Of a stretch of 64,000 bases of DNA, positions 48,720 through 64,000 are shown piece by piece; the stretch's first letter is position 1, and every line of letters starts with the position of its first letter. The DNA lies in contig DAOWGM010000164.1 of NCBI GenBank assembly GCA_030637515.1, forward strand, positions 1 to 64,000, read 5' to 3'. The DNA is from Bacteroidales bacterium. GTDB taxonomy: Bacteria > Bacteroidota > Bacteroidia > Bacteroidales > UBA12077. Under the pieces are notes generated by a model that was not told the DNA's origin, did not search any database, and worked only from the letters and a program-made list of their open reading frames with translations. The position numbers and the translations under genes are program-made.

Positions 48720-49862
48720 ATGATTGGAACAAATATACCATTGAAAATATCTTATAATTGGCTAAACAAATTAGGTTTTTTTATAATACTTTTTTATTTG
48801 AATATCGGTTTTATTGAGACTTCCAGATTGCTTGAGAAAAACAATCTGGTTATTTGCGGTATTCTTCTTTTTACTTTAATCTCTTTTATTATTTTTATTA
48901 AAAAGTATAAAGATTTCTCTCCTGCTTTCTTAAGAATAATCTTTATTGCATTGCTTTTATATATTTATCTAATAATTTCTTCATTATATGGGAATAAGGA
49001 ATATGGTTTCATTAAATCTTATTATGGATTACTTCTACCGTTTACAATTGCTGTTTTTTTTGAATGTGTTAAATGGAAAGAAGAAGAAGTATTAAGTTTT
49101 TTAACTGTATCAATATTTATAATTAGTATCATTGGCATTTTATTTAAATTAAAACACGGATTTTATAGTAGACCTGTAAATTTTGGATTATTTGGATCTA
49201 TTACCTTTGGTTGGATGACAGGAATAGGTTTCTTTTCTGCATTATTTTCTAAAAAAAACAATTTTTTTAGAATTTTTTTTATTGTCTTCTTTTTGTTTAT
49301 GTTATTGTGGTCAGGATCTAAAGGCCCTTTTCTGGGAGTCGTATTGATTTTTTTAGTGTATTTAGGTCGTAATTATATTAAGAAAGCAAATTTAAAAATT
49401 CTTCTGCTGTTTCTTTTTTTCATTGTTCTTTTGTACTGTATTTATTTATTGGATATTCGACAGTTAAGATTTATTTCAAAACTAATTGAAAATCCTATAG
49501 GTTACCTTTCAGGAGAAGGAAGTGGATCAATTGGTGTTAGAATTGATCTATCATCAATAGCTTTTAAGTCTTTTATTGATTCTCCAATAATTGGAAATGG
49601 TTTCGGGAGTTTTATAGAAAATTCTACATATCTTCATAAATACCCACACAATGTTTATTTGGAATTATTATCAGAGACAGGTATACTTGGATTAAGTGCA
49701 ATAATAGTAATAATAGTGCTTTTAAGTAAGCGAAATACTATTACATTAATTGCTTATTATGGACTTATTGTTCTTTTATTCAGTGGAGATTTTTCATATT
49801 TTAGATATGCATTATTTATTTTGCTTATGAGTTATTTTATTGTCAAGAATAAAGAAAAATGA
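48720..49862 (+). CDS. Wzy/O-antigen-ligase-like polymerase
   Basis: A 380-residue inner-membrane protein with about ten hydrophobic segments. The periplasmic loop and following helix carry the family signature: GVRIDLSSIAFKSFIDSPIIGNGFGSF, HNVYLELLSETGILGL. Such proteins polymerise or transfer lipid-linked glycans. Its last four bases overlap the Wzx start (ATGA), so polymerase and flippase are co-translated. Because sequence does not separate polymerase from ligase, I call it Wzy-like. Confidence 0.8.
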   Translation: MIGTNIPLKISYNWLNKLGFFIILFYLNIGFIETSRLLEKNNLVICGILLFTLISFIIFIKKYKDFSPAFLRIIFIALLLYIYLIISSLYGNKEYGFIKSYYGLLLPFTIAVFFECVKWKEEEVLSFLTVSIFIISIIGILFKLKHGFYSRPVNFGLFGSITFGWMTGIGFFSALFSKKNNFFRIFFIVFFLFMLLWSGSKGPFLGVVLIFLVYLGRNYIKKANLKILLLFLFFIVLLYCIYLLDIRQLRFISKLIENPIGYLSGEGSGSIGVRIDLSSIAFKSFIDSPIIGNGFGSFIENSTYLHKYPHNVYLELLSETGILGLSAIIVIIVLLSKRNTITLIAYYGLIVLLFSGDFSYFRYALFILLMSYFIVKNKEK

Positions 49863-51163
49863 AAATAACAAGTAAGATTAAAAAGCAATTAAGTAAGGAT
49901 CGTAAATTTATTTTTAAATTAATTTGGACCTCTACAACAAGAAGCGTTGCTGTTATTGGCACACTGCTTTTTAAGTTTATATTAGCAAGAAAGTTAGGAC
50001 TACAAGAATTTGGCGATTTTATGTTAGTGTATGCAATGCTAATTGGTTTAAGTTTCTTTGCAAAATTTGGAATTCAACAGGCAGTATTGAGGTTTGCAGG
50101 AATTTTTATGGCCAATAAAGATTTTGGGAAATTGAAAAGCTTAAGAAGAGATGTTATTCTTTTTATCACTGGTACCAGTATCTTTTTGGGAATATTATTT
50201 ATATTATTTCGTGTAATTATAGTCGATAAATTTTTTGACAACAATACCTTTACCAAAGTAATTTTAATAATGGCTGTTTCTTTACCTTTTTATGTAAATA
50301 TTGGTATTCAGGCATCGTATATGAGAGCATTTAAAAAACCTGAAATAGCCCCTTTATTTGAAGTTGGGTTGTCAGCATTCTATACAGTTGCCTTAGTTTC
50401 AATTGCTTCTTGGTTAGGATATAATATAACTCCACTAATTGTAAGTATATTCTTTTTAATTTCAGTGTTAATAACTTCGTTTTTAGGAAGTAGAATATTG
50501 GTTGGGATACTAAAAAAATTAAATACTGAAAAAACAATTGAGTATAAATCATATAGCGGGGTTTTTAATACTTTACCGGATTATGCTCTTTCCAGTATTA
50601 CAACTTATTTGATAAAATTTAGTCCTACAATTATATTAGGAATATATGCTAGCAGTTCTGACGTTGGGTTATATTCAATTGCAAATAGTACAGCACTTGT
50701 TATTAATTTTGTTTTAGGAATTGTAAGTTCAGTGTCAGCACCATATTTTGCAAACTACTATAAAGAAGGAAAAATAAAAGAACTGAAAAATCTGATAAGA
50801 AATTCAACAATTTATATGATGGTAATTGCAACGCCGGTATTTTTATTAATTATTATTTTTCCTACTGAGATTTTATCTTATTTTGGTCAAGAGTATAAGC
50901 AAGCCAGTATGGCTCTTGTTATTCTTGCTGTTGCACAGCTTTTTAATGTTCTTACAGGTCCGGTTTATTTTGTGCTTGGAATGACAGGACACGAAAAACA
51001 ATTAAGAAATATTGTATTTGGAACCGCATTACTTAGTATCAGCTCTTCATTTATTTTAATTCCAATGTATGGATTTGTTGGAGCGACAATATCTACAGCT
51101 ATCGGATTGGTAATTCAGAATTTCTTTGCATATTTTAAAACAAAAAAGATTTTAACAATATAA
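49859..51163 (+). CDS. Wzx-like oligosaccharide flippase
   Basis: A 434-residue polytopic membrane protein of the polysaccharide transporter (MOP) family, with about 12-14 TM helices. The start (SVAVIGTLLFKFILARKLGLQEFGDFMLVYAML) and the internal GIYASSSDVGLYSIANSTALV and PTEILSYFGQEYKQAS segments are typical. It would flip the lipid-linked repeat unit to the periplasm. It is coupled to the polymerase (4-base overlap) and followed three bases later by the pyruvyl-transferase-like gene. Confidence 0.85.
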   Translation: MKITSKIKKQLSKDRKFIFKLIWTSTTRSVAVIGTLLFKFILARKLGLQEFGDFMLVYAMLIGLSFFAKFGIQQAVLRFAGIFMANKDFGKLKSLRRDVILFITGTSIFLGILFILFRVIIVDKFFDNNTFTKVILIMAVSLPFYVNIGIQASYMRAFKKPEIAPLFEVGLSAFYTVALVSIASWLGYNITPLIVSIFFLISVLITSFLGSRILVGILKKLNTEKTIEYKSYSGVFNTLPDYALSSITTYLIKFSPTIILGIYASSSDVGLYSIANSTALVINFVLGIVSSVSAPYFANYYKEGKIKELKNLIRNSTIYMMVIATPVFLLIIIFPTEILSYFGQEYKQASMALVILAVAQLFNVLTGPVYFVLGMTGHEKQLRNIVFGTALLSISSSFILIPMYGFVGATISTAIGLVIQNFFAYFKTKKILTI

Positions 51164-53539: not shown

Positions 53540-54004
53540 ATGGAGGAGTTTATAAGTTTTGGTCGGTATTTTGAAGATTTTACTGTAAATAATACAATAC
53601 ATCATAGTCTTGGTAAAACAATATTTGAAAGTGATAATAATTTTTTTTCATTGTTAACTATGAATCATCACCCAGTACATATTGATGTAAACTATGCTAA
53701 AAATAATCAACATGGAGAGGTTTTAGTTGTTGGAATATTAGTTTTTAGTATTGCAGTTGGATTAACTGTCTCGGAAATTAGTGGAAAAGCAATAGCTAAT
53801 TTGGAGTATGAAAGTATAATTCATTTAAACCCGGTTCACATTAATGATACAATTTATGTTAGAACTAAAATACTTGATAAAATAGAATCAAAAAGTAAAC
53901 CTGATAGAGGAATAGTATACGTTGAAACTACTGGATATAACCAAAATAAAATTGCTGTAATCAAGTTTCGGCGAAAAGTATTAGTAAAACGAAAACCAGA
54001 ATGA
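53540..54004 (+). CDS. MaoC-family hydratase
   Basis: A 154-residue hot-dog-fold protein of the MaoC/R-hydratase family (YFEDFTVNNTIHHSLGKTIFESDNNFF; LTMNHHPVHIDVNYA; VGLTVSEISGK; NDTIYVRTKILDK). In the hydratase-2 active site, the NHHPVHID segment places a His in the expected position while the usual catalytic Asp (GDxNPxH) appears as Asn. It starts immediately before the CitE-like lyase with a one-base gap, and the pair resembles mesaconyl-CoA hydratase with beta-methylmalyl-CoA lyase. Such a pair is unexpected inside a polysaccharide cluster. Confidence 0.8.
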   Translation: MEEFISFGRYFEDFTVNNTIHHSLGKTIFESDNNFFSLLTMNHHPVHIDVNYAKNNQHGEVLVVGILVFSIAVGLTVSEISGKAIANLEYESIIHLNPVHINDTIYVRTKILDKIESKSKPDRGIVYVETTGYNQNKIAVIKFRRKVLVKRKPE

Positions 54005-54005
54005 T

Positions 54006-54893
54006 ATGAATAAATATATGTTAAGAAGCTTAATGTTTGTCCCTGCGCATAATGAGCGATTAATGGATAGTGCCGATCGTTCCAATGCAGATGTTTTATT
54101 ACTTGATATTGAAGACTCTGTTCAGCCGCAACAAAACAAACAAGTTGCCAGAGATTTGATTATAAAATCTTTACAGGAAGGAAAGTTTAAAAATCACAAA
54201 GTGTTTCCAAGAATAAATGACAGGGAAAGTGGTCATTTATTAAAAGATATTTCACAACTTTCTATTGAAGGAGTTGATGGTTTTATGTATCCGAAAGCAG
54301 AATGTGGAAATGATATTTATTTTATTGATAAGTTATTAGAAACAATTGAGTACGAAAAAGGAATTCCTGTTGGTACTTTTAAATTGATTCCTTTAATTGA
54401 AACAACTTCAGCTGTTTTAAATGCTCAGGATATATGTAAGGCTTCCAAACGTGTTATTGCAATAGCATTTGGATGTGAGGACTATATAACTGATTTGGAA
54501 GGAATACATGATTTGGAAGGTGATAGCCTATTTACAGCAAGAGCAATGATTGCAATGGCCGCAAGAGCCGAAAGAGTAATCCCAATAGATACAGTTCATA
54601 TAAAAGTTCATGATTATGAAGATCTTGAAAAAAATCTGAAAATAGCAAAGAAATTTGGTTTTGAAGGGATGTTGGTATTACATCCGAAAGAACTTGAACT
54701 AGTGCATAAATATTTTTCTCCTACAGAACAAGAATATGATGATGCGGTAGAAATGATTAGATTATCAGAAATAGCAAAAAAAGAAGGTAAAGGTGTTGCG
54801 ATAATGAATGGTAAATTTATAGGTCCACCTATGATTAAGACTTCAAGAAAAATAATTAGTAAATATCAACTTATTAATGAAAGTAGTAATTAG
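54006..54893 (+). CDS. CitE/HpcH-type CoA-ester lyase
   Basis: A 295-residue TIM-barrel lyase of the HpcH/HpaI/CitE family. It shows LRSLMFVPAHNERLMDSA, LLLDIEDSVQPQQ, the KLIPLIETTSAVLNAQDI segment with the metal-binding Glu, AIAFGCEDYITDLEG (metal Asp), and GFEGMLVLHPKELELV. The family cleaves malyl-, methylmalyl- or citramalyl-CoA to acetyl/propionyl-CoA plus a keto acid. With the MaoC gene one base upstream it could hydrate an unsaturated acyl-CoA and then cleave it, or run in reverse to build an acyl group for glycan decoration. The latter is speculative. Confidence 0.82.
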   Translation: MNKYMLRSLMFVPAHNERLMDSADRSNADVLLLDIEDSVQPQQNKQVARDLIIKSLQEGKFKNHKVFPRINDRESGHLLKDISQLSIEGVDGFMYPKAECGNDIYFIDKLLETIEYEKGIPVGTFKLIPLIETTSAVLNAQDICKASKRVIAIAFGCEDYITDLEGIHDLEGDSLFTARAMIAMAARAERVIPIDTVHIKVHDYEDLEKNLKIAKKFGFEGMLVLHPKELELVHKYFSPTEQEYDDAVEMIRLSEIAKKEGKGVAIMNGKFIGPPMIKTSRKIISKYQLINESSN

Positions 54894-54978: not shown

Positions 54979-55467
54979 GTGACAAAGAAAAATTATATCG
55001 CAGAGATTTATTCGGATAGTTCTACAATAAGAATTAAACCTGGTTCTGTTATCTCAGCCTTTATGAATGAGGATTTTTACGCTGTCTATGAATGTGATTT
55101 TGATTTATCAGAATTAGACGATGCTGTTTTGATAATACCTTTTGTTTTAGCTACTGCTGCTATTATTTGGTGTTCAGGAGAAGAGGTTTATATTGACCGG
55201 CTTGATTCTCAGTTAACTCAAAGTTTACCTAAAATAAAGGCAGCATATGCTGAGATGTATCCCTCTATTGAGTGGAATGGGAATATCAGGGTACTAACCT
55301 CTGTTTCAACTTCTATTGAAGGAAAATCAGATGGACTTTTATTTTCAGGAGGTATAGATTCTATCCATTCGGTTTTTAATTATCCAAACTCTGATTTTTT
55401 ATTCACGATTTGGGGTGCTGATACTAACCCTGAAGAAGATATCTCTTGGAAATCTATTTTGCCGTAA
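54979..55467 (+). pseudogene. Truncated PP-loop (QueC-like) ATPase fragment
   Basis: A 162-residue reading frame starting at GTG. The C-terminal part contains LLFSGGIDSIHSVF, the SGGxDS pyrophosphate-loop of QueC/asparagine-synthase-like ATPases, but the frame stops about 36 residues later. As I recall the family, related polysaccharide-cluster proteins have this motif after a ~140-residue N-terminal domain and continue for another 250 or so residues. The 87 bases before the next gene encode no continuation in any frame, so the C-terminal part appears to have been deleted. It could still be a functional short protein, but a remnant is more likely. Confidence 0.6.
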
Positions 55468-55554: not shown

Positions 55555-56229
55555 ATGGATAAAGTAATAATTATAGGTGGAAAAGGAACTGCTGTTATAA
55601 TTGCAGAGCAAATATATGATGCTGTTACAAGATTTAATGAGAAAATTGAATTTTTAGGTTTTGCATTTGATGACGAAACTATGGGTGATACTATTAATGG
55701 ATTTCCTCTGTTATGTAAAACATATGACGCATATAAAAAATATGGAAGTTATAATGATGTAAAATTTATCTATTCATTATACAGGCCAGATCTAATGAAG
55801 GTTAGAGCAGAATTACTATATAGTTTTAAAATCCCTGATGAAAAAATGTACACTTTTATTCATCCTTCTGCTTTAGTAACAAGAAGTGCAAAGATAGGAT
55901 CAGGTAGTGTTGTTTTGGCAAATGTGATTATTAATAGTAATTCTGTAATAGGAAGAAATAACACATTTAATGTTGGAACTTTAATTGGACATGATACAAA
56001 ACTTGGTGATAATAATTTCTTTGCTGCTCAAGTATGTGTTGGAAGTAATCTAATAATAGGTAATGGAAATTTCGTAGGGCTAAATTCAAGTTTACGAAAT
56101 TTTTTAAATATAGGCGATTACAATGTCGTTGGAATGCAATCTAATGTTACTAAGAATATATTAAATGAACAGGTTTTGTATGGTAATCCTGCAGTAGTAA
56201 AAGGCCCTTTAAATAATGCTGTACGTTAA
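55555..56229 (+). CDS. pglD: PglD/NeuD-like sugar O/N-acetyltransferase
   Basis: A 224-residue acetyltransferase with an N-terminal nucleotide-sugar-binding domain (VIIIGGKGTAVIIAEQIYDA) and C-terminal hexapeptide repeats (AKIGSGSVVLANVIINSNSVIG, KLGDNNFFAAQVCVGSNLIIGNGNFVG). In PglD the product is UDP-N,N'-diacetylbacillosamine. The presence of a PglC-like transferase 11 bases downstream and a PglE-like aminotransferase at the far side of the cluster supports this over a sialic-acid NeuD role. A TATTTTTG lies about 33 bases before the ATG. Confidence 0.8.
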   Translation: MDKVIIIGGKGTAVIIAEQIYDAVTRFNEKIEFLGFAFDDETMGDTINGFPLLCKTYDAYKKYGSYNDVKFIYSLYRPDLMKVRAELLYSFKIPDEKMYTFIHPSALVTRSAKIGSGSVVLANVIINSNSVIGRNNTFNVGTLIGHDTKLGDNNFFAAQVCVGSNLIIGNGNFVGLNSSLRNFLNIGDYNVVGMQSNVTKNILNEQVLYGNPAVVKGPLNNAVR

Positions 56230-56240
56230 TTTGTAAATAA

Positions 56241-56852
56241 ATGAGAATGTACTCAAGATGCTTTAAACGTATGTTTGATTTTTTAATAGCATTGTTTTTT
56301 TTGTTATTAATGTTACCAATTATAATAATTGTAACGATAATACTTTTTTTTGTGAATAAAGGATCACCTCTTTTCTTTCAAAAAAGACCTGGGAAAAACG
56401 AAAGAATTTTTACTTTAATAAAGTTTAAAACAATGTCTGATGAAAGGGATGAAACCGGAAAATTATTTTCGGATGAAAAACGATTATCAAAAACAGGTCG
56501 TTTTTTAAGAAAAACTTCTTTAGATGAATTGCCGCAGTTTATAAATATACTAAAGGGAGATATGTCTCTTATTGGTCCTAGACCATTGTCTGTAAAATAT
56601 TTAAAACTATATAATGAGGAGCAAAGAATGAGACATAAGGTCTTGCCTGGAATAACAGGTCTAGCTCAGGTAAACGGAAGAAATAATCTGGATTGGGCAA
56701 AGAGATTTGAATATGATGTTTATTATGTTGAAAATATTAATTTATTATTGGATCTACGAATATTTTGGCTAACAATTAAAAAAGTTATAAAAAGAGAAAA
56801 TGTCTTGGAAGCGGGAACTTCATCAATAAAATCATTTGAAGGAAATAATTAA
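56241..56852 (+). CDS. pglC: PglC/WecA-independent initiating phosphoglycosyltransferase
   Basis: A 203-residue monotopic bacterial sugar transferase. After an N-terminal hydrophobic re-entrant helix (FDFLIALFFLLLMLPIIIIVTIILFF) come the catalytic motifs: PLFFQKRPGKNERIFTLIKFKTM, RLSKTGRFLRKTSLDELPQF (catalytic Asp-Glu), GDMSLIGPRPL and LPGITGLAQVNGRN. It links the first sugar phosphate, probably diacetylbacillosamine, to undecaprenyl phosphate. The small size without extra TM domains is the PglC type. It is the first of two such catalytic domains in the window. Confidence 0.9.
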   Translation: MRMYSRCFKRMFDFLIALFFLLLMLPIIIIVTIILFFVNKGSPLFFQKRPGKNERIFTLIKFKTMSDERDETGKLFSDEKRLSKTGRFLRKTSLDELPQFINILKGDMSLIGPRPLSVKYLKLYNEEQRMRHKVLPGITGLAQVNGRNNLDWAKRFEYDVYYVENINLLLDLRIFWLTIKKVIKRENVLEAGTSSIKSFEGNN

Positions 56853-57848: not shown

Positions 57849-58871
57849 ATGTTAAAAATTTTTGATTTATCGTGTGAAAAAGAATGGAGAGAAATTATTC
57901 AATCTGCTTATCAGCATGATTTTTACCATACATATGATTATCATCAATTAGCTAAACAAAATAGAGAAGGGACTCCTAAACTCTTTGTTTTTGATAATGG
58001 CAATGAATTTGTTGCTTTACCTCTAATTGAAAGGTTAATAGACAAAGACCAGAACTTAATTGATTATACATCTGTATATGGGTATGTAGGTCCTGTGTAT
58101 AGTCGTGAAGACTTATCTGAAGAGAGTTTGAATGGATTTAAATCAGAATTTGAGAATCACATGTTGCAGAATAATGTTGTTTCAGTTTTTTCAAGATTAC
58201 ATCCATTAATTGAACAAAATTTTATTTTAGAAAATATTGGCAATATTGAGCAGTTAAATGAAACTGTTATTATTGATTTAAAATTAAGTTTAGAAGATCA
58301 AAGAAAAAAATATAGAAAATCAAATAAGTCTGAAATTAATAAACTTCGTCGAACTATAAATTGTAGAATAGCTGAAACCGAAGAGGAACTAGATAAATTT
58401 GTAGAGATTTATACTAATAATATGAAACGCGTCAACGCGTCAAATAAATATTTTTTTGATAAAGATTATTTTAAGCGTTTATTAAATGCTAGAGATTTTA
58501 AATCGGAGTTAATACTGGCGTTTGAGAATGATAAGATTATGGCAGGTGCAATTTTTATTTATACACAAAAAATAGTACAGTATCATTTAGCGGGAACTGC
58601 AGAAGAATATCTACATCAAACACCAATGAAGTTGATATTAGATGAAGTGCGATTAAAAAGCACAAAAGAGTGTTTTGATACCTTTCATTTGGGAGGTGGA
58701 GTTGGGAGTCAACAGGATTCATTATTTAGATTTAAATCAGGTTTTTCAGATAATTACAAACAGTTTAATCTTTGGAAGTATATAGTTAATGATGAAGTAT
58801 ATAATGAGCTTGTAGCCAAAAGAAAAAACGAAATTAATGACACTAGCTATTTCCCATTATACAGAGGTTGA
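57849..58871 (+). CDS. FemAB/GNAT-like acyl- or aminoacyltransferase
   Basis: A 340-residue protein resembling FemAB/BioF2-type double-GNAT proteins. It starts FYHTYDYHQLAKQN, has the YGYVGPVYS segment, the basic patch EDQRKKYRKSNKSEINKLRR, the TNNMKRVNASNKYFFDKDYF region and a C-terminal GNAT fold (ILAFENDKIMAGAIFIYT, LAGTAEEYLHQTPMKLILDEV, HLGGGVGSQQDSLFRFKSGFS). Such enzymes attach amino acids or acyl groups to a sugar amine or peptide. It sits among sugar genes, so a glycan modification is likely; donor and acceptor are not readable. Confidence 0.72.
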   Translation: MLKIFDLSCEKEWREIIQSAYQHDFYHTYDYHQLAKQNREGTPKLFVFDNGNEFVALPLIERLIDKDQNLIDYTSVYGYVGPVYSREDLSEESLNGFKSEFENHMLQNNVVSVFSRLHPLIEQNFILENIGNIEQLNETVIIDLKLSLEDQRKKYRKSNKSEINKLRRTINCRIAETEEELDKFVEIYTNNMKRVNASNKYFFDKDYFKRLLNARDFKSELILAFENDKIMAGAIFIYTQKIVQYHLAGTAEEYLHQTPMKLILDEVRLKSTKECFDTFHLGGGVGSQQDSLFRFKSGFSDNYKQFNLWKYIVNDEVYNELVAKRKNEINDTSYFPLYRG

Positions 58872-58888: not shown

Positions 58889-60826
58889 ATGAATATTGAA
58901 ATGATAAAATATAAGAAAAACAGACTTTCATGGTTTTATATTCTAATTGTATCTCTTTGGATACTAAGGATGGTTTTACCAGGAATCAAATATTTATTTA
59001 TACCTGCTTTTTTTATATTCGTTGTCGCTAATCTCATATATTTTAAAAATAGCTTTTTAAAAAAAGCATATTTATTTGAGTTTTCCAGAACGTTTTATCC
59101 TTTATACATATTAATATTCTTTTATTTAGTAGGAGTACTTATTTCAAACGAATTATATCTGTTATGTTTAAAAGATATAATGGAATTTGTTATTTTAGTT
59201 ATTGTATTGTACAGTTTGTTTTTATTTATGCATGAGGCTTCAGATATTAATTACCTTAAAAGGATTTTTAAAAAAATTGTGAGAGTAATTGGTGTTTTAT
59301 CTGTAATTATTGCTGTATTAGGATTGTTAAAATTTATTTTTCAGTTAAATGGGATTTATTTATTTGAAAGCCCCTTTGGAACTTCTATTAATACTGATAC
59401 AAATTTTTACTCTTTATTTTCATTTTTGGGTATTATATCATTTTTACCCTCATTAGTTAAATCTGACAATAAAAAAAGAAATATATTAAATCAATTTCTC
59501 ATTTTTATATTAATACTGAATATTGTTTTTTCATATTCTTACCGCTCTTTATTTCTACTTGGTTTAATAATTTCGCTTTTAATTTCTACTCAAATTATTA
59601 GCATCTTTAGAAGAAAAAAAAATAATCTTAATAAAAACTTTAGGTTGTTGTTTTATATTATTATTCCATCAATTATTATTATTCTTAGTGTATCGAAAAT
59701 AAACCCTTCTTTAAATTCGAAGTTAAAAAGTGGTTATGAAAACAAATTTATACAGGATAATAATAATAGTATTGAATATAAGAAAGCATTAAAACTTGCT
59801 TTTAAATACGATAAATGGGAATATGCAATAGAATATTTTAGTGAACAGAAACTTATTAACAAATTTTTTGGGGGTGGGTTTTTGTATACAGAAAAATTTG
59901 GTGAAAAATTTCATTCAGAGATAAAAGGCTATGATTATCCACATAATCCGGTTTTGTCTGCATTACTTTATTCCGGATTAATTGGTGCGCTTTTTTTATT
60001 AAGTTTTCTATTGATTTCGTTGTATTATGGATTTGTTTATTTAAAGAAATACCCACTTTTTTCATTAATGCTTTTTATTTCATCTCTGTTTGTTTTTTTT
60101 AGTGGTAATAGTATTTTTAGTATACCGGTATTTCTATTTTTATTTTCAATGTCATTTTTAGTACGTCATCAGGAAATTACTGATTTAAATATTGAAATGA
60201 ACCTTCATAAACCAGGAAGTAAATTTCTAAAAGAGATATTTGATTATGTTGTTGCAACAGTGTTTATTATTTTAATTTCACCTATTTTATTTATAATAAT
60301 TATTATTGTTTTGTTTTCAATGGGTTGGCCTGTAATTTATAGTCAAAAACGAATCGGACAAAACGGGAAAATATTTCTTCTCCATAAGTTTAGAACAATG
60401 AAGAAAGTTCATTCCGATACAACTGTTGCAGCAAAAGAACAAAGCCGAATAACAAAAACAGGTGCTTTCTTGAGAAAAACAAAATTGGATGAGCTTCCTG
60501 AATTATGGAATATAATAAGAGGTGATATGAGTTTTGTCGGACCGCGACCCGACGTGCCAGGTTATGCTGATAAATTAAATGATGTTGACAAGGTTATTTT
60601 ACAACTAAAACCTGGTTTAACCGGTGCAGCATCATTAAAATATATGGACGAAGAAGAAATCTTACAAAAACAATCGGATCCTCAAAAGTATAATGATGAT
60701 GTAATTTTTCCTGATAAGGTTAGAATTAATAAGGAATACATGAAGCGATGGTCAATGCTTCTTGATATTAAAATTATATTATTTACAGGCTTAAGAAAAA
60801 AATTAACGGAAAAATATTTTCAGTAG
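58889..60826 (+). CDS. Wzy-like polymerase fused to an initiating phosphoglycosyltransferase
   Basis: A 645-residue fusion. Residues 1 to about 430 are a polytopic polymerase/ligase-like domain with about ten TM segments and the late YDYPHNPVLSALLYSGLIGALFLLSFLL signature. From about 445 (LKEIFDYVVATVFIILISPILFIIII) a complete phosphoglycosyltransferase follows with PVIYSQKRIGQNGKIFLLHKFRTM, TGAFLRKTKLDELPELWNII, GDMSFVGPRPDVPGY and KPGLTGAASLKYMDEEEI. No stop or frameshift separates them and both halves keep their motifs. A single protein would thus carry the enzyme that starts a repeat unit and one that polymerises units. It lies 17 bases after the FemAB-like gene. Confidence 0.85.
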   Translation: MNIEMIKYKKNRLSWFYILIVSLWILRMVLPGIKYLFIPAFFIFVVANLIYFKNSFLKKAYLFEFSRTFYPLYILIFFYLVGVLISNELYLLCLKDIMEFVILVIVLYSLFLFMHEASDINYLKRIFKKIVRVIGVLSVIIAVLGLLKFIFQLNGIYLFESPFGTSINTDTNFYSLFSFLGIISFLPSLVKSDNKKRNILNQFLIFILILNIVFSYSYRSLFLLGLIISLLISTQIISIFRRKKNNLNKNFRLLFYIIIPSIIIILSVSKINPSLNSKLKSGYENKFIQDNNNSIEYKKALKLAFKYDKWEYAIEYFSEQKLINKFFGGGFLYTEKFGEKFHSEIKGYDYPHNPVLSALLYSGLIGALFLLSFLLISLYYGFVYLKKYPLFSLMLFISSLFVFFSGNSIFSIPVFLFLFSMSFLVRHQEITDLNIEMNLHKPGSKFLKEIFDYVVATVFIILISPILFIIIIIVLFSMGWPVIYSQKRIGQNGKIFLLHKFRTMKKVHSDTTVAAKEQSRITKTGAFLRKTKLDELPELWNIIRGDMSFVGPRPDVPGYADKLNDVDKVILQLKPGLTGAASLKYMDEEEILQKQSDPQKYNDDVIFPDKVRINKEYMKRWSMLLDIKIILFTGLRKKLTEKYFQ

Positions 60827-60830
60827 AACA

Positions 60831-61961
60831 ATGGAAAAAAAGATATGGTTATCATCTCCACATATGAGTGGGAAGGAGCAAAAATACATTGAAGAGGCTT
60901 TTAGCGAGAACTGGATTGCGCCTCTTGGACCAAATGTTAATGGTTTTGAAAAGGAACTCGCAGAATATACAGGTGTTAAGAATGTTGCAGCACTAAGTTC
61001 GGGAACTGGGGCTCTTCATTTAGCTCTAATCTTATTAGGTGTAAATTCCGGAGATGAAATTTTATGTTCTTCATTTACATTTTCAGCTTCAGCTAATCCA
61101 ATTATTTATCAGAATGCAAAACCTATTTTTATTGATAGTGAGAAGGATACCTGGAATATGGATCCAGAACTTTTAGAAAAAGCAATAAAAGATAGAATCT
61201 CAAAGGGAATAAAACCAAAAGCAATAATTTTAGTTCATTTGTATGGAATGCCTGCAAAAATGAATGAAATAGTAGCGATCTCTAAAAAATATGAAATACC
61301 TTTAATTGAAGATGCCGCTGAAGCTTTAGGAAGCAAGTATCAGGGAAAAATGGTTGGCAGTTTTGGAGATATCTCAATTTTATCTTTCAATGGGAATAAG
61401 ATTATTACTACTTCCGGAGGAGGAGCATTGTTGTCCGATAACCAAGAAATCGTTGAGAAAGCAAGATTTCTAGCTACTCAAGCTCGAGATGACGCTCCAC
61501 ATTATCAACATTCGCATATTGGATATAATTATAGAATGAGCAATATTTTAGCAGGTATTGGAAGGGGACAATTAGAAGTTATTAACGATCGTGTAAATAA
61601 ACGACGATCTGTTTATAATTTTTATATTGATTTATTAAAAGATATTAAAGGAATAAAATTTCATAAAGAACCGAATGAAGATTATTTTTCAAATCGATGG
61701 TTAACAGCAATTATTATCGACCCTAAAGAAACAGGTGTCACAAGAGAAAATTTGCGATTAGGACTAAATAGTTATAATATTGAATCGCGACCTTTATGGA
61801 AACCTATGCATTTACAGCCAATTTTTTCTGAAAGCAAGGCATATGTTAATGGCACTAGTGAAAATTTATTTAATAATGGGTTATGTCTGCCTTCCGGCAG
61901 TAATATGAGTAAAGAGGATTATGAACGAATTGAAATTGCAATTAAAAAGTTTTTTAAATAA
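60831..61961 (+). CDS. pglE: PglE-like UDP-sugar aminotransferase
   Basis: A 376-residue DegT-family aminotransferase very close to the PglE type that makes UDP-4-amino-sugar for bacillosamine. Characteristic segments: LSSPHMSGKEQKYIEEAFSEN, WIAPLGPNVNGFE, LSSGTGALHLALILLG, the PLP-lysine motif SFNGNKIITTSGGGAL, and GYNYRMSNILAGIGRGQLE. The required 4,6-dehydratase (PglF) is not in the window; it may lie to the right. The gene starts four bases after the fusion gene, so it is part of the same operon. Confidence 0.88.
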   Translation: MEKKIWLSSPHMSGKEQKYIEEAFSENWIAPLGPNVNGFEKELAEYTGVKNVAALSSGTGALHLALILLGVNSGDEILCSSFTFSASANPIIYQNAKPIFIDSEKDTWNMDPELLEKAIKDRISKGIKPKAIILVHLYGMPAKMNEIVAISKKYEIPLIEDAAEALGSKYQGKMVGSFGDISILSFNGNKIITTSGGGALLSDNQEIVEKARFLATQARDDAPHYQHSHIGYNYRMSNILAGIGRGQLEVINDRVNKRRSVYNFYIDLLKDIKGIKFHKEPNEDYFSNRWLTAIIIDPKETGVTRENLRLGLNSYNIESRPLWKPMHLQPIFSESKAYVNGTSENLFNNGLCLPSGSNMSKEDYERIEIAIKKFFK

Positions 61962-61962
61962 T

Positions 61963-64000
61963 GTGAAAACAGATAAAAAGAAAATAGGATTTTTCTTTTT
62001 AATGTTATCTCTTATAAGTGCTATATTTAGGAGTCAGGTTAGTTTCCTCCTTTATCTGAGTGTAATAACTCTTATTTTGGGATTAACAGTGAATCTGAAA
62101 GAAATAATAAAGATTAAGAATTACCTTAATAGAAAACTTATATTATGGGGTCTTGTTATAGTATTTTTCATGGTTCCCATAATTTATGAGGTAGTTAAAT
62201 TCAAGAATCTTTTTAGTGAACTTTTCAACCTAATATATATAGTCGGTTTATTTATAGGATTATATTCTTATCTTATAATTGATAAGAGAAAATATAGCAA
62301 ACTGTTTTTTGATTTGTTTAAATTTCTATTTATTGTTTTTGGAGTATGCATTGTTTTTTATTATTCAATTTTATTGATAAGCTCAGGTAGTATTAACATG
62401 CTGGCTGTAAAGTCTTTGGATAATAATTTCTTTAGTTTGAATCTACTTATTCTACTATTGTTCCTCTTTGAAAAAATAAGCAAAAAGGAAAACAGGGGAG
62501 TACTACTATTCATAAATTTTCTACTAATATTAATAAGTTTATTAATTCTGTTTTCAGGCTCACGAAGAGGAATATTTATATTTACTTTATTTATCTCAGG
62601 ATTTACAATTTATTCATTAATAAATTTAAAAAGGTTAGTTAAATTAATTCCTTTCTTATCTTTTGTAATTATCTCGTTTACAATGATATTTTATTTGGCC
62701 GTGGGATCAAATTCAACATTACGTGTTTATCTTGTAGAAAAGTATTCTTCAAATAGTCAAGCACTAAAAAGTCAGATTACACAAGTTGAGTATAAGTACT
62801 TCAAGGCATTGGTGTCAGAAGTGGATTATAGTTCTTTTTACCATAGGCTATGGAATACTACAAATAAAAAACAATATCTAATTAACAACCTGCTTTCGAA
62901 AAAACATAAAAATAATTATAAAAGAGTTGATCGGAAAGAAAATTACAATAAAGCTATAGAAGAACTATATTATTACAGTTTATTAAAATCAGATATAGAA
63001 AAAACAAAAGTTTTAGCAAACGATATTTCTAAAAATATACCAGATACTTTTTTTTATGCTTCAAATATTAAAGCAATACCTTATTATTGTAATATCCCAT
63101 ATAGGTTTAAGGGCTCAATTAGTTTAGCTGGCTACAAAGGTTTATACCCTATTGATTATTCTGAAAAAACAATTGAAGGAAAAAATAGGTTGTTTATAAA
63201 GTTTAGAACATTTAGTTTAGAAACACCAAAATTCTTTATCAACTTTACAGGAATGCCAGGAAATTATTCTGTAGAATTTATTTTAGGTCTTGACACCCCT
63301 GTTCCAGAAGTAATTATTAAGTCTGAAAGAAATAATATACCTAATTGTGAAATAAAAAATATTAAATTATCTAAATTAAATGATAGTTATAGAAAGGTGA
63401 AGGTAGATTTTTTAGTTAAAAATATATCTGCAATAAATAGACTTTATCTGGAATGGAAAGATGAAGAGTCAATGTGCTTAAGTGTTTCAGATTTAAATTT
63501 TTCATTTTTTGGTGGCTCTTCCGAATATTATTTAAATCCCACTATTTTGCCAAAGCATATAAGAGTGATTCGGAAAATGAATAGAGGAAGAAACGGTCAA
63601 ATAAAGATGATTAAATTAGCTATTACTCGTCATGAATCAATGCTAAGGGAACTTACACAAAATACATATAGCCAGAACTTGATTAATGACTTGGAAAAGC
63701 TTGCAAAATCAAAGCTTTATACAAATATGTGTGATAGGTATATACAAGATTCAGTTTATTCTTTTCGTAATTTTAAAAATGAAGATTTATTCTTTTTCAG
63801 AAAAAAAATTCCTGCAATACCTGTGAGTATAGTTCACATTAATTATAAAGTAAAAATAATAAATGGTTTGAACCATAAATTAGCAAAACACCCTAATCGA
63901 AGTTTTGAGTCACTAAATTTTGATCTTGTAAAATATCAAGAGAAAGAGCTGGATGATGATTGGATTGAATATTTTCTCTCATATAAAATAAATTCAAGTT
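61963..64000 (+). CDS. Partial polymerase-like membrane protein, open to the window edge
   Basis: Not in the ORF track because it has no stop before 64000. I translated it by hand: the frame runs without a stop for 679 codons from the GTG at 61963 (one base after the pglE-like stop); the first ATG is at 62002. The first ~240 residues are hydrophobic (FFLLMLSLIS-like start, LIIVQ-type helices) with the O-antigen-polymerase-like ILFSGSRRGIFIFTLFI. The next ~440 residues are hydrophilic and mixed alpha/beta, with no transmembrane segment, so they would form a very large periplasmic domain or loop. The rest of the protein lies outside. I call it an O-antigen ligase/polymerase-like protein with unusual extracytoplasmic domain. 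Confidence 0.7.
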   Translation, partial: MKTDKKKIGFFFLMLSLISAIFRSQVSFLLYLSVITLILGLTVNLKEIIKIKNYLNRKLILWGLVIVFFMVPIIYEVVKFKNLFSELFNLIYIVGLFIGLYSYLIIDKRKYSKLFFDLFKFLFIVFGVCIVFYYSILLISSGSINMLAVKSLDNNFFSLNLLILLLFLFEKISKKENRGVLLFINFLLILISLLILFSGSRRGIFIFTLFISGFTIYSLINLKRLVKLIPFLSFVIISFTMIFYLAVGSNSTLRVYLVEKYSSNSQALKSQITQVEYKYFKALVSEVDYSSFYHRLWNTTNKKQYLINNLLSKKHKNNYKRVDRKENYNKAIEELYYYSLLKSDIEKTKVLANDISKNIPDTFFYASNIKAIPYYCNIPYRFKGSISLAGYKGLYPIDYSEKTIEGKNRLFIKFRTFSLETPKFFINFTGMPGNYSVEFILGLDTPVPEVIIKSERNNIPNCEIKNIKLSKLNDSYRKVKVDFLVKNISAINRLYLEWKDEESMCLSVSDLNFSFFGGSSEYYLNPTILPKHIRVIRKMNRGRNGQIKMIKLAITRHESMLRELTQNTYSQNLINDLEKLAKSKLYTNMCDRYIQDSVYSFRNFKNEDLFFFRKKIPAIPVSIVHINYKVKIINGLNHKLAKHPNRSFESLNFDLVKYQEKELDDDWIEYFLSYKINSS

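Follow-up and report, generated by a model that had tools for sequence, protein, structure and literature searches.

Bi-PGTs are a recognised class of proteins, in which a phosphoglycosyltransferase (PGT) core of the mono-PGT type has a further functional domain fused to its N- or C-terminus (PMC10942596; PMC10653937; PMC12802240). The protein considered here, encoded in a 64,000-nucleotide stretch of DNA (hereafter the window) from a metagenome-assembled genome (MAG) of a Bacteroidales bacterium, resembles them in combining a mono-PGT core and a second domain in one open frame that is conserved across genomes, but its partner is a Wzy_C protein with 12 predicted transmembrane (TM) helices, which would act on the opposite face of the membrane. 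The partners listed by O'Toole in 2021 are reportedly sugar-modifying enzymes, glycosyltransferases, regulatory domains and polytopic PGTs. The category is already known, and it is the Wzy-type partner that may be new, our literature search for a Wzy–PGT fusion having found no report of one.

The PGT half shares with PglC of Campylobacter (structures 8g1n and 8e37) the DE dyad, the PRP motif and a re-entrant helix with an S-P break, but differs in being fused to a Wzy half and in lacking the GLLP motif. In the PSA system of Bacteroides fragilis, WcfS and WcfR are likewise a small mono-PGT and an amino-transfer enzyme making a 4-amino-2,4,6-trideoxy sugar (PMC13063421), but the PGT clade of the window fusion is paired with a 376-aa enzyme of the LegC type; a different clade, which has an upstream aminotransferase of about 405 aa (and is reverse-fused in genome G015, see below), looks more WcfS-like on gene size and order only. 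Lg-PGTs (WcaJ and WbaP) also have a membrane domain ahead of the mono-PGT core, but theirs is a 4-TM bundle accompanied by a CoA_binding_3-type domain. For the membrane half, the enzymes to consider are WaaL (7TPG) and the O-oligosaccharyltransferases PglL and PglS, which have in common with it probable membership of the Wzy_C superfamily, S/T-x-R and HN motifs and about 12 TM helices; it differs from them in being fused to a PGT, and is related to them only via the profile of WzyB, a second Wzy_C protein discussed below.

The fused gene

The gene and its parts lie in the window as follows.

58889..60826, + strand: Wzy_C::mono-PGT fusion gene, 645 aa, ATG to TAG; full-length homologues in relatives
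58889..60172, + strand: Wzy_C/WaaL-superfamily half, residues 1-428, 12 predicted TM helices, probably N-in/C-in (PF04932, 31.0 bits; helices, loop charges, family alignment)
59543..59545, + strand: codon of R219 in the S-x-R motif, at the predicted periplasmic start of TM8 (14/15 family members)
59942..59944, + strand: codon of H352 in the PHN motif (aligned with HN of WzyB and, via WzyB, with WaaL 7TPG)
60173..60220, + strand: short conserved linker, predicted to be cytoplasmic, residues 429-444 (alignment of fused proteins)
60221..60823, + strand: small mono-PGT domain, residues 445-645, with the DE dyad at 60488-60493 (PF02397, E 2.1e-54; PglC 8g1n/8e37, E 2e-26)

The single-chain fusion described in the first-pass annotation is present exactly as it had stated, in one 645-aa frame with Pfam matches in both halves, that of the Wzy half lying just under the cut-off. 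Its description of the C-terminal half as PglC/WcaJ-type needs to be narrowed to a small mono-PGT of the PglC type, because the 4-TM bundle and CoA_binding_3-type domain of a full WcaJ-type protein are absent (the Pfam scan of the fusion gave PF04932 and PF02397 only). PF02397 (Bac_transf) covers residues 448-633 (184.2 bits, against a cut-off of 27), and the C. concisus PglC structures match residues 445-584 in phmmer. Of the features seen in this half (a basic stretch, the S464-P465 helix break, KFRTM at 500, D534-E535 and GPRP at 551), the DE dyad and PRP have been described as hallmarks of mono-PGTs (PMC10653937). The GLLP loop motif has been given for PGTs that use UDP-diNAcBac (PMC10942596), and inspection of the corresponding loop (residues 505-522) by eye found no GLLP, so the substrate is probably not that of the UDP-diNAcBac-specific PglC. 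Gene order, in the form of a constant LegC-type neighbour and the parallel with WcfR/WcfS, points to 4-amino-2,4,6-trideoxy-HexNAc as the sugar.

Occurrence in Bacteroidales

The fusion was found at seven independent MAG loci in seven separate Bacteroidales genomes, the window included. A single frame spans both halves at six of the seven, the other being a fragment at a contig edge that crosses the junction. The homologues are:

G006: 647 aa, same genus, 56% identity to the window protein
G365: 666 aa, another family of the order
G113: 594 aa, at a contig edge, another family of the order
NIUZ01000074: 641 aa, MAG record
JAQICC010000399: 646 aa, Salinivirgaceae MAG
G002: contig-edge fragment across the junction, same genus

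All share the linker E-I-x-x-L...KPGS, with small changes only. A genome-wide scan that took the Wzy half as its query returned five loci, every one of them fused. The fusion is present in 3/20 genomes of the genus and 4/393 sampled genomes of the order; a sample of the class (395 genomes, with the Wzy half as query) gave only the window's own fusion, and none of 72,556 plasmids had a match covering 80% or more of the fusion protein. In a phylum-wide PGT survey, the long PGT frames fetched among the matches listed were scanned with Pfam, and all were Bi-PGTs of other kinds; these matches set no bound on how frequent Wzy::PGT fusions are outside Bacteroidales. The fusion is rare and, in what was searched, limited to Bacteroidales, which bears out the earlier impression that no fusion of this type is common.

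It might be argued that a missing stop codon or frame error has merged two adjacent genes, as two-gene tandems do occur in relatives (G042), and contamination of the window genome, itself a MAG, stands at 7.7%. However, the independent loci come from different assemblies, have a conserved linker and form a single clade. They exclude the sequencing error that the annotation had named as an alternative, and make any such merger a negligible prospect: the frame at 58889-60826 is a genuine, if rare, fusion of a PGT and a Wzy_C membrane half.

The membrane half

PF04932 (Wzy_C) matches residues 204-371 of the window protein (E 2.6e-07), with a score just below the cut-off of 31.7 bits; two relatives score 28.2 and 26.0 bits, and others have no match. 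Nor does any NCBIfam model match this half. It has 12 predicted TM helices and a predicted periplasmic loop of 82 residues (272-353). The charges of the loops (cytoplasmic +13/-7, periplasmic +14/-14) are compatible with an N-in/C-in arrangement, in which case the linker and the PGT would be cytoplasmic, and R219 and H352 would lie at the periplasmic face. Two AlphaFold models, built from shallow alignments of 6-7 sequences (pLDDT 57 and 67), were used for helix positions only, and Foldseek of these models against the PDB gave no match at E<=0.001.

The alignment reveals residues that the fused family has in common with its unfused relatives, D170, N172, S217-x-R219, K325-x-x-G and (D/Y)-P-H352-N, and the window protein has the family motifs D170, S217-x-R219, K325 and P351-H352-N353. 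S-x-R and (P)HN motifs at the predicted periplasmic face of a 12-TM protein are characteristic of the Wzy_C/O-antigen ligase superfamily. Compared with the PDB, the profile of the fused Wzy family gave chance matches only, no solved WaaL (7TPG) or oligosaccharyltransferase being among them. It does align with the profile of WzyB (hhalign probability 96.9, E 1.5e-10), H352 falling on H354 of WzyB, and WzyB itself has matches to WaaL 7TPG (E 5e-13, HN on HN) and to the oligosaccharyltransferase 9rmk (E 8.6e-06). In WaaL-like enzymes the histidine has been proposed to act as catalytic base, the pyrophosphate being held by arginines, and PglS H324A serves as an inactive control (PMC12800693). It is a fair inference that the Wzy half is a transferase using an Und-PP-glycan donor. 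The first-pass annotation had gone further and called it a Wzy-like polymerase, but this is not established, since Wzy_C spans polymerases, O-antigen ligases and O-oligosaccharyltransferases, besides which at least three further Wzy_C-type proteins are encoded in the cluster. Sequence does not decide between a polymerase, a lipid A-core ligase and an enzyme of protein glycosylation.

Gene neighbourhood

The fusion gene lies in a polysaccharide cluster, with the following neighbours.

48720..49862, + strand: further stand-alone Wzy_C protein, 380 aa (PF04932, E 6.2e-17)
49859..51163, + strand: MATE/Wzx-type flippase (PF01943/PF13440)
55555..56229, + strand: NeuD/PglD-type sugar acetyltransferase (TIGR03570, E 1.6e-39)
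56241..56852, + strand: separate small mono-PGT (PGT1), of a different clade (PF02397, E 4.7e-62; tree)
57849..58871, + strand: FemAB/GNAT-fold acyltransferase, just upstream of the fusion (PF13480, E 9.8e-09)
60831..61961, + strand: LegC-family sugar aminotransferase, 376 aa, conserved partner of the PGT clade (TIGR04181, E 9e-116)
61921..64000, + strand, continuing on the contig to around base 64650: long unfused Wzy from the family of the fused protein, 909 aa, start not fixed (homology, alignment)

In loci that are long enough, the fusion is followed by the LegC aminotransferase (directly or one gene later) and then by a MATE flippase, after which the longer loci tend to continue with GT4, GT2 and WzyB (about 430 aa); in G006 and G365 a PglD-type acetyltransferase is directly upstream of the fusion. 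The LegC partners are 60-69% identical, and are found near fused PGTs and beside many unfused ones. The window cluster has two PGTs, two MATE proteins and four Wzy_C-type proteins (the 380-aa protein, the fusion, the 909-aa protein and, beyond the window, WzyB). One of the PGTs is the separate PglC-like gene that had already been recognised upstream, PGT1. The accompanying suggestion was that the fused transferase may start a second glycan or act on a different lipid-linked product. The idea of two glycans is supported, though not proved, by the make-up of this cluster; the different clades of its two PGTs are in keeping with two glycans or two initiating sugars.

The cluster also includes genes for a MaoC-like hydratase and an HpcH/CitE-like lyase (53540-54893), and a 162-aa frame with a GTG start, an abrupt end and no Pfam match (54979-55467), perhaps a truncated gene. 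A search of 43000-64000 for Rfam families gave no match.

A possible link between initiation and polymerisation

We propose, at a probability of roughly 0.5, that the protein is a bifunctional mono-PGT, whose PGT half initiates a glycan and whose Wzy half uses the Und-PP-glycan, most likely in polymerisation, with WzyB as the ligase. The PglC-type half would transfer a sugar-1-phosphate from UDP onto undecaprenyl phosphate at the cytoplasmic face, the sugar probably being supplied by the adjacent LegC-type aminotransferase, with or without acetylation. The GT4 and GT2 enzymes of the operon would elongate the glycan and the MATE protein would flip it, whereupon the N-terminal half would take the Und-PP-glycan donor at the periplasmic face and most likely polymerise repeat units, and the WaaL-like WzyB of the same operon would carry out ligation. 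Initiation and polymerisation would in this way be held in one complex at fixed stoichiometry.

Polymerisation is favoured for the Wzy half because the closer relative of WaaL, WzyB, is encoded in the same operon. The roles could nevertheless be distributed otherwise, the Wzy half being a ligase or O-oligosaccharyltransferase (WaaL/PglL-like), so that the fusion would start a short glycan and, once it is complete, attach it to lipid A-core or protein, with another Wzy_C protein polymerising. WaaL and the oligosaccharyltransferases do belong to the same fold family, the matches of the related WzyB are to just these enzymes, and only two glycosyltransferase genes lie downstream, as in a short glycan. 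Against this must be set the presence of WzyB itself as the closer WaaL relative, and the failure of the fused family's profile to match any solved member of either group; we consider this distribution of roles unlikely, but by no means far-fetched.

Rather more doubtful is the idea that the Wzy half serves chiefly to anchor the PGT in the membrane or to provide it with a docking platform, its own catalysis being under weak selection or dispensable. Between fused proteins the Wzy halves are only 41-49% identical, compared with 63-71% for the PGT halves, but unfused Wzy proteins of this kind generally diverge fast. The motifs, said at the outset to be all intact, are so in the window protein, but in one fused relative (L057:634-2559, + strand) those of the Wzy half have gone (D170N, R219E, P351A, H352N), with the PGT motifs intact; R219 and H352 are retained in the other six fused proteins. 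Two genomes, G251 and G391, have a compact five-gene PGT-MATE-GT4-GT2-WzyB cassette without a Wzy of the fused type (L091:6897-12261 and L092:774-6135), and in the PGT tree their unfused PGTs adjoin L057 within the fused clade, as they might if they were secondary losses. This nesting is not firm, as a tree constrained to keep the six fused rows in a single clade was not rejected (AU p 0.345). The cassettes and the loss of residues in L057 suggest that some lineages can dispense with the Wzy half, and the decay in L057 together with the nesting may mean that in part of the family it is a scaffold or is being lost.

In the assembly of surface polysaccharides it is an open question whether the enzymes that start and consume a lipid-linked glycan cooperate physically from opposite sides of the membrane. 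Proteins of one complex are often marked by gene fusions. It may be, though here we are more tentative than about the bifunctional enzyme itself, that this is a new Bi-PGT class in which the first and last enzymes of a Wzx/Wzy-type pathway are coupled covalently, having evolved from adjacent genes on two or more occasions with the domains in opposite orders; this would imply that separate PGT and Wzy proteins normally belong to one complex. The natural fusion, the reverse-order fusion and the lineage with a decayed Wzy half provide concrete proteins with which coupling could be tested, and the fused members and their long-insert relatives make up an undescribed Wzy family tied to a defined initiating transferase.

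Origin of the fusion

In a tree with eight unfused relatives, the Wzy halves form one clade (support 100/100), and the Wzy half therefore has a single origin. The unfused PGTs of the fused clade, 50-57% identical, are usually genes of about 200 aa adjoining the same LegC aminotransferase, and unfused Wzy proteins of the fused family share clusters with them in G011, G048, G256 and G042 (in the last as a Wzy-then-PGT tandem). Since unfused members of both families share clusters, the link between them predates the fusion, and the simplest account is that the fusion arose from two linked neighbouring genes.

The unfused Wzy relatives contain inserts that can reach several hundred residues. Those at 61921-64000 of the window, L020:9834-13211, L093:3315-6698 and L021:5380-7542 are 618-1127 aa long, with large inserts before PHN, and two have weak matches to CBM_4_9.

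Other fusions involving PGTs

A second, independent fusion, so far in one MAG only, is present in a congener, G015 (L023:1092-3011, - strand), where a 639-aa protein has the PGT (19-210) ahead of Wzy_C (426-577, E 3.8e-20). Its parts differ from those of the window fusion, being a PGT of another clade and WzyB, and the same pair are separate neighbouring genes in G214, G190 and G350.

A 670-aa frame in G211, first suspected of being the window-type fusion, proved to be GT4::PGT. The Bi-PGTs of other kinds encountered in related genomes were PGT::PglF-like dehydratase (L084:5366-7849, + strand), GT2::Lg-PGT (L096:2572-4938, - strand) and GT4::PGT (L052:3-2015, + strand), and at two loci (L094:3120-5603, - strand, and L097:1212-3698, + strand) a polytopic PGT (PF00953), CoA_binding_3 and a mono-PGT are combined in one chain, as polytopic PGT::Lg-PGT.
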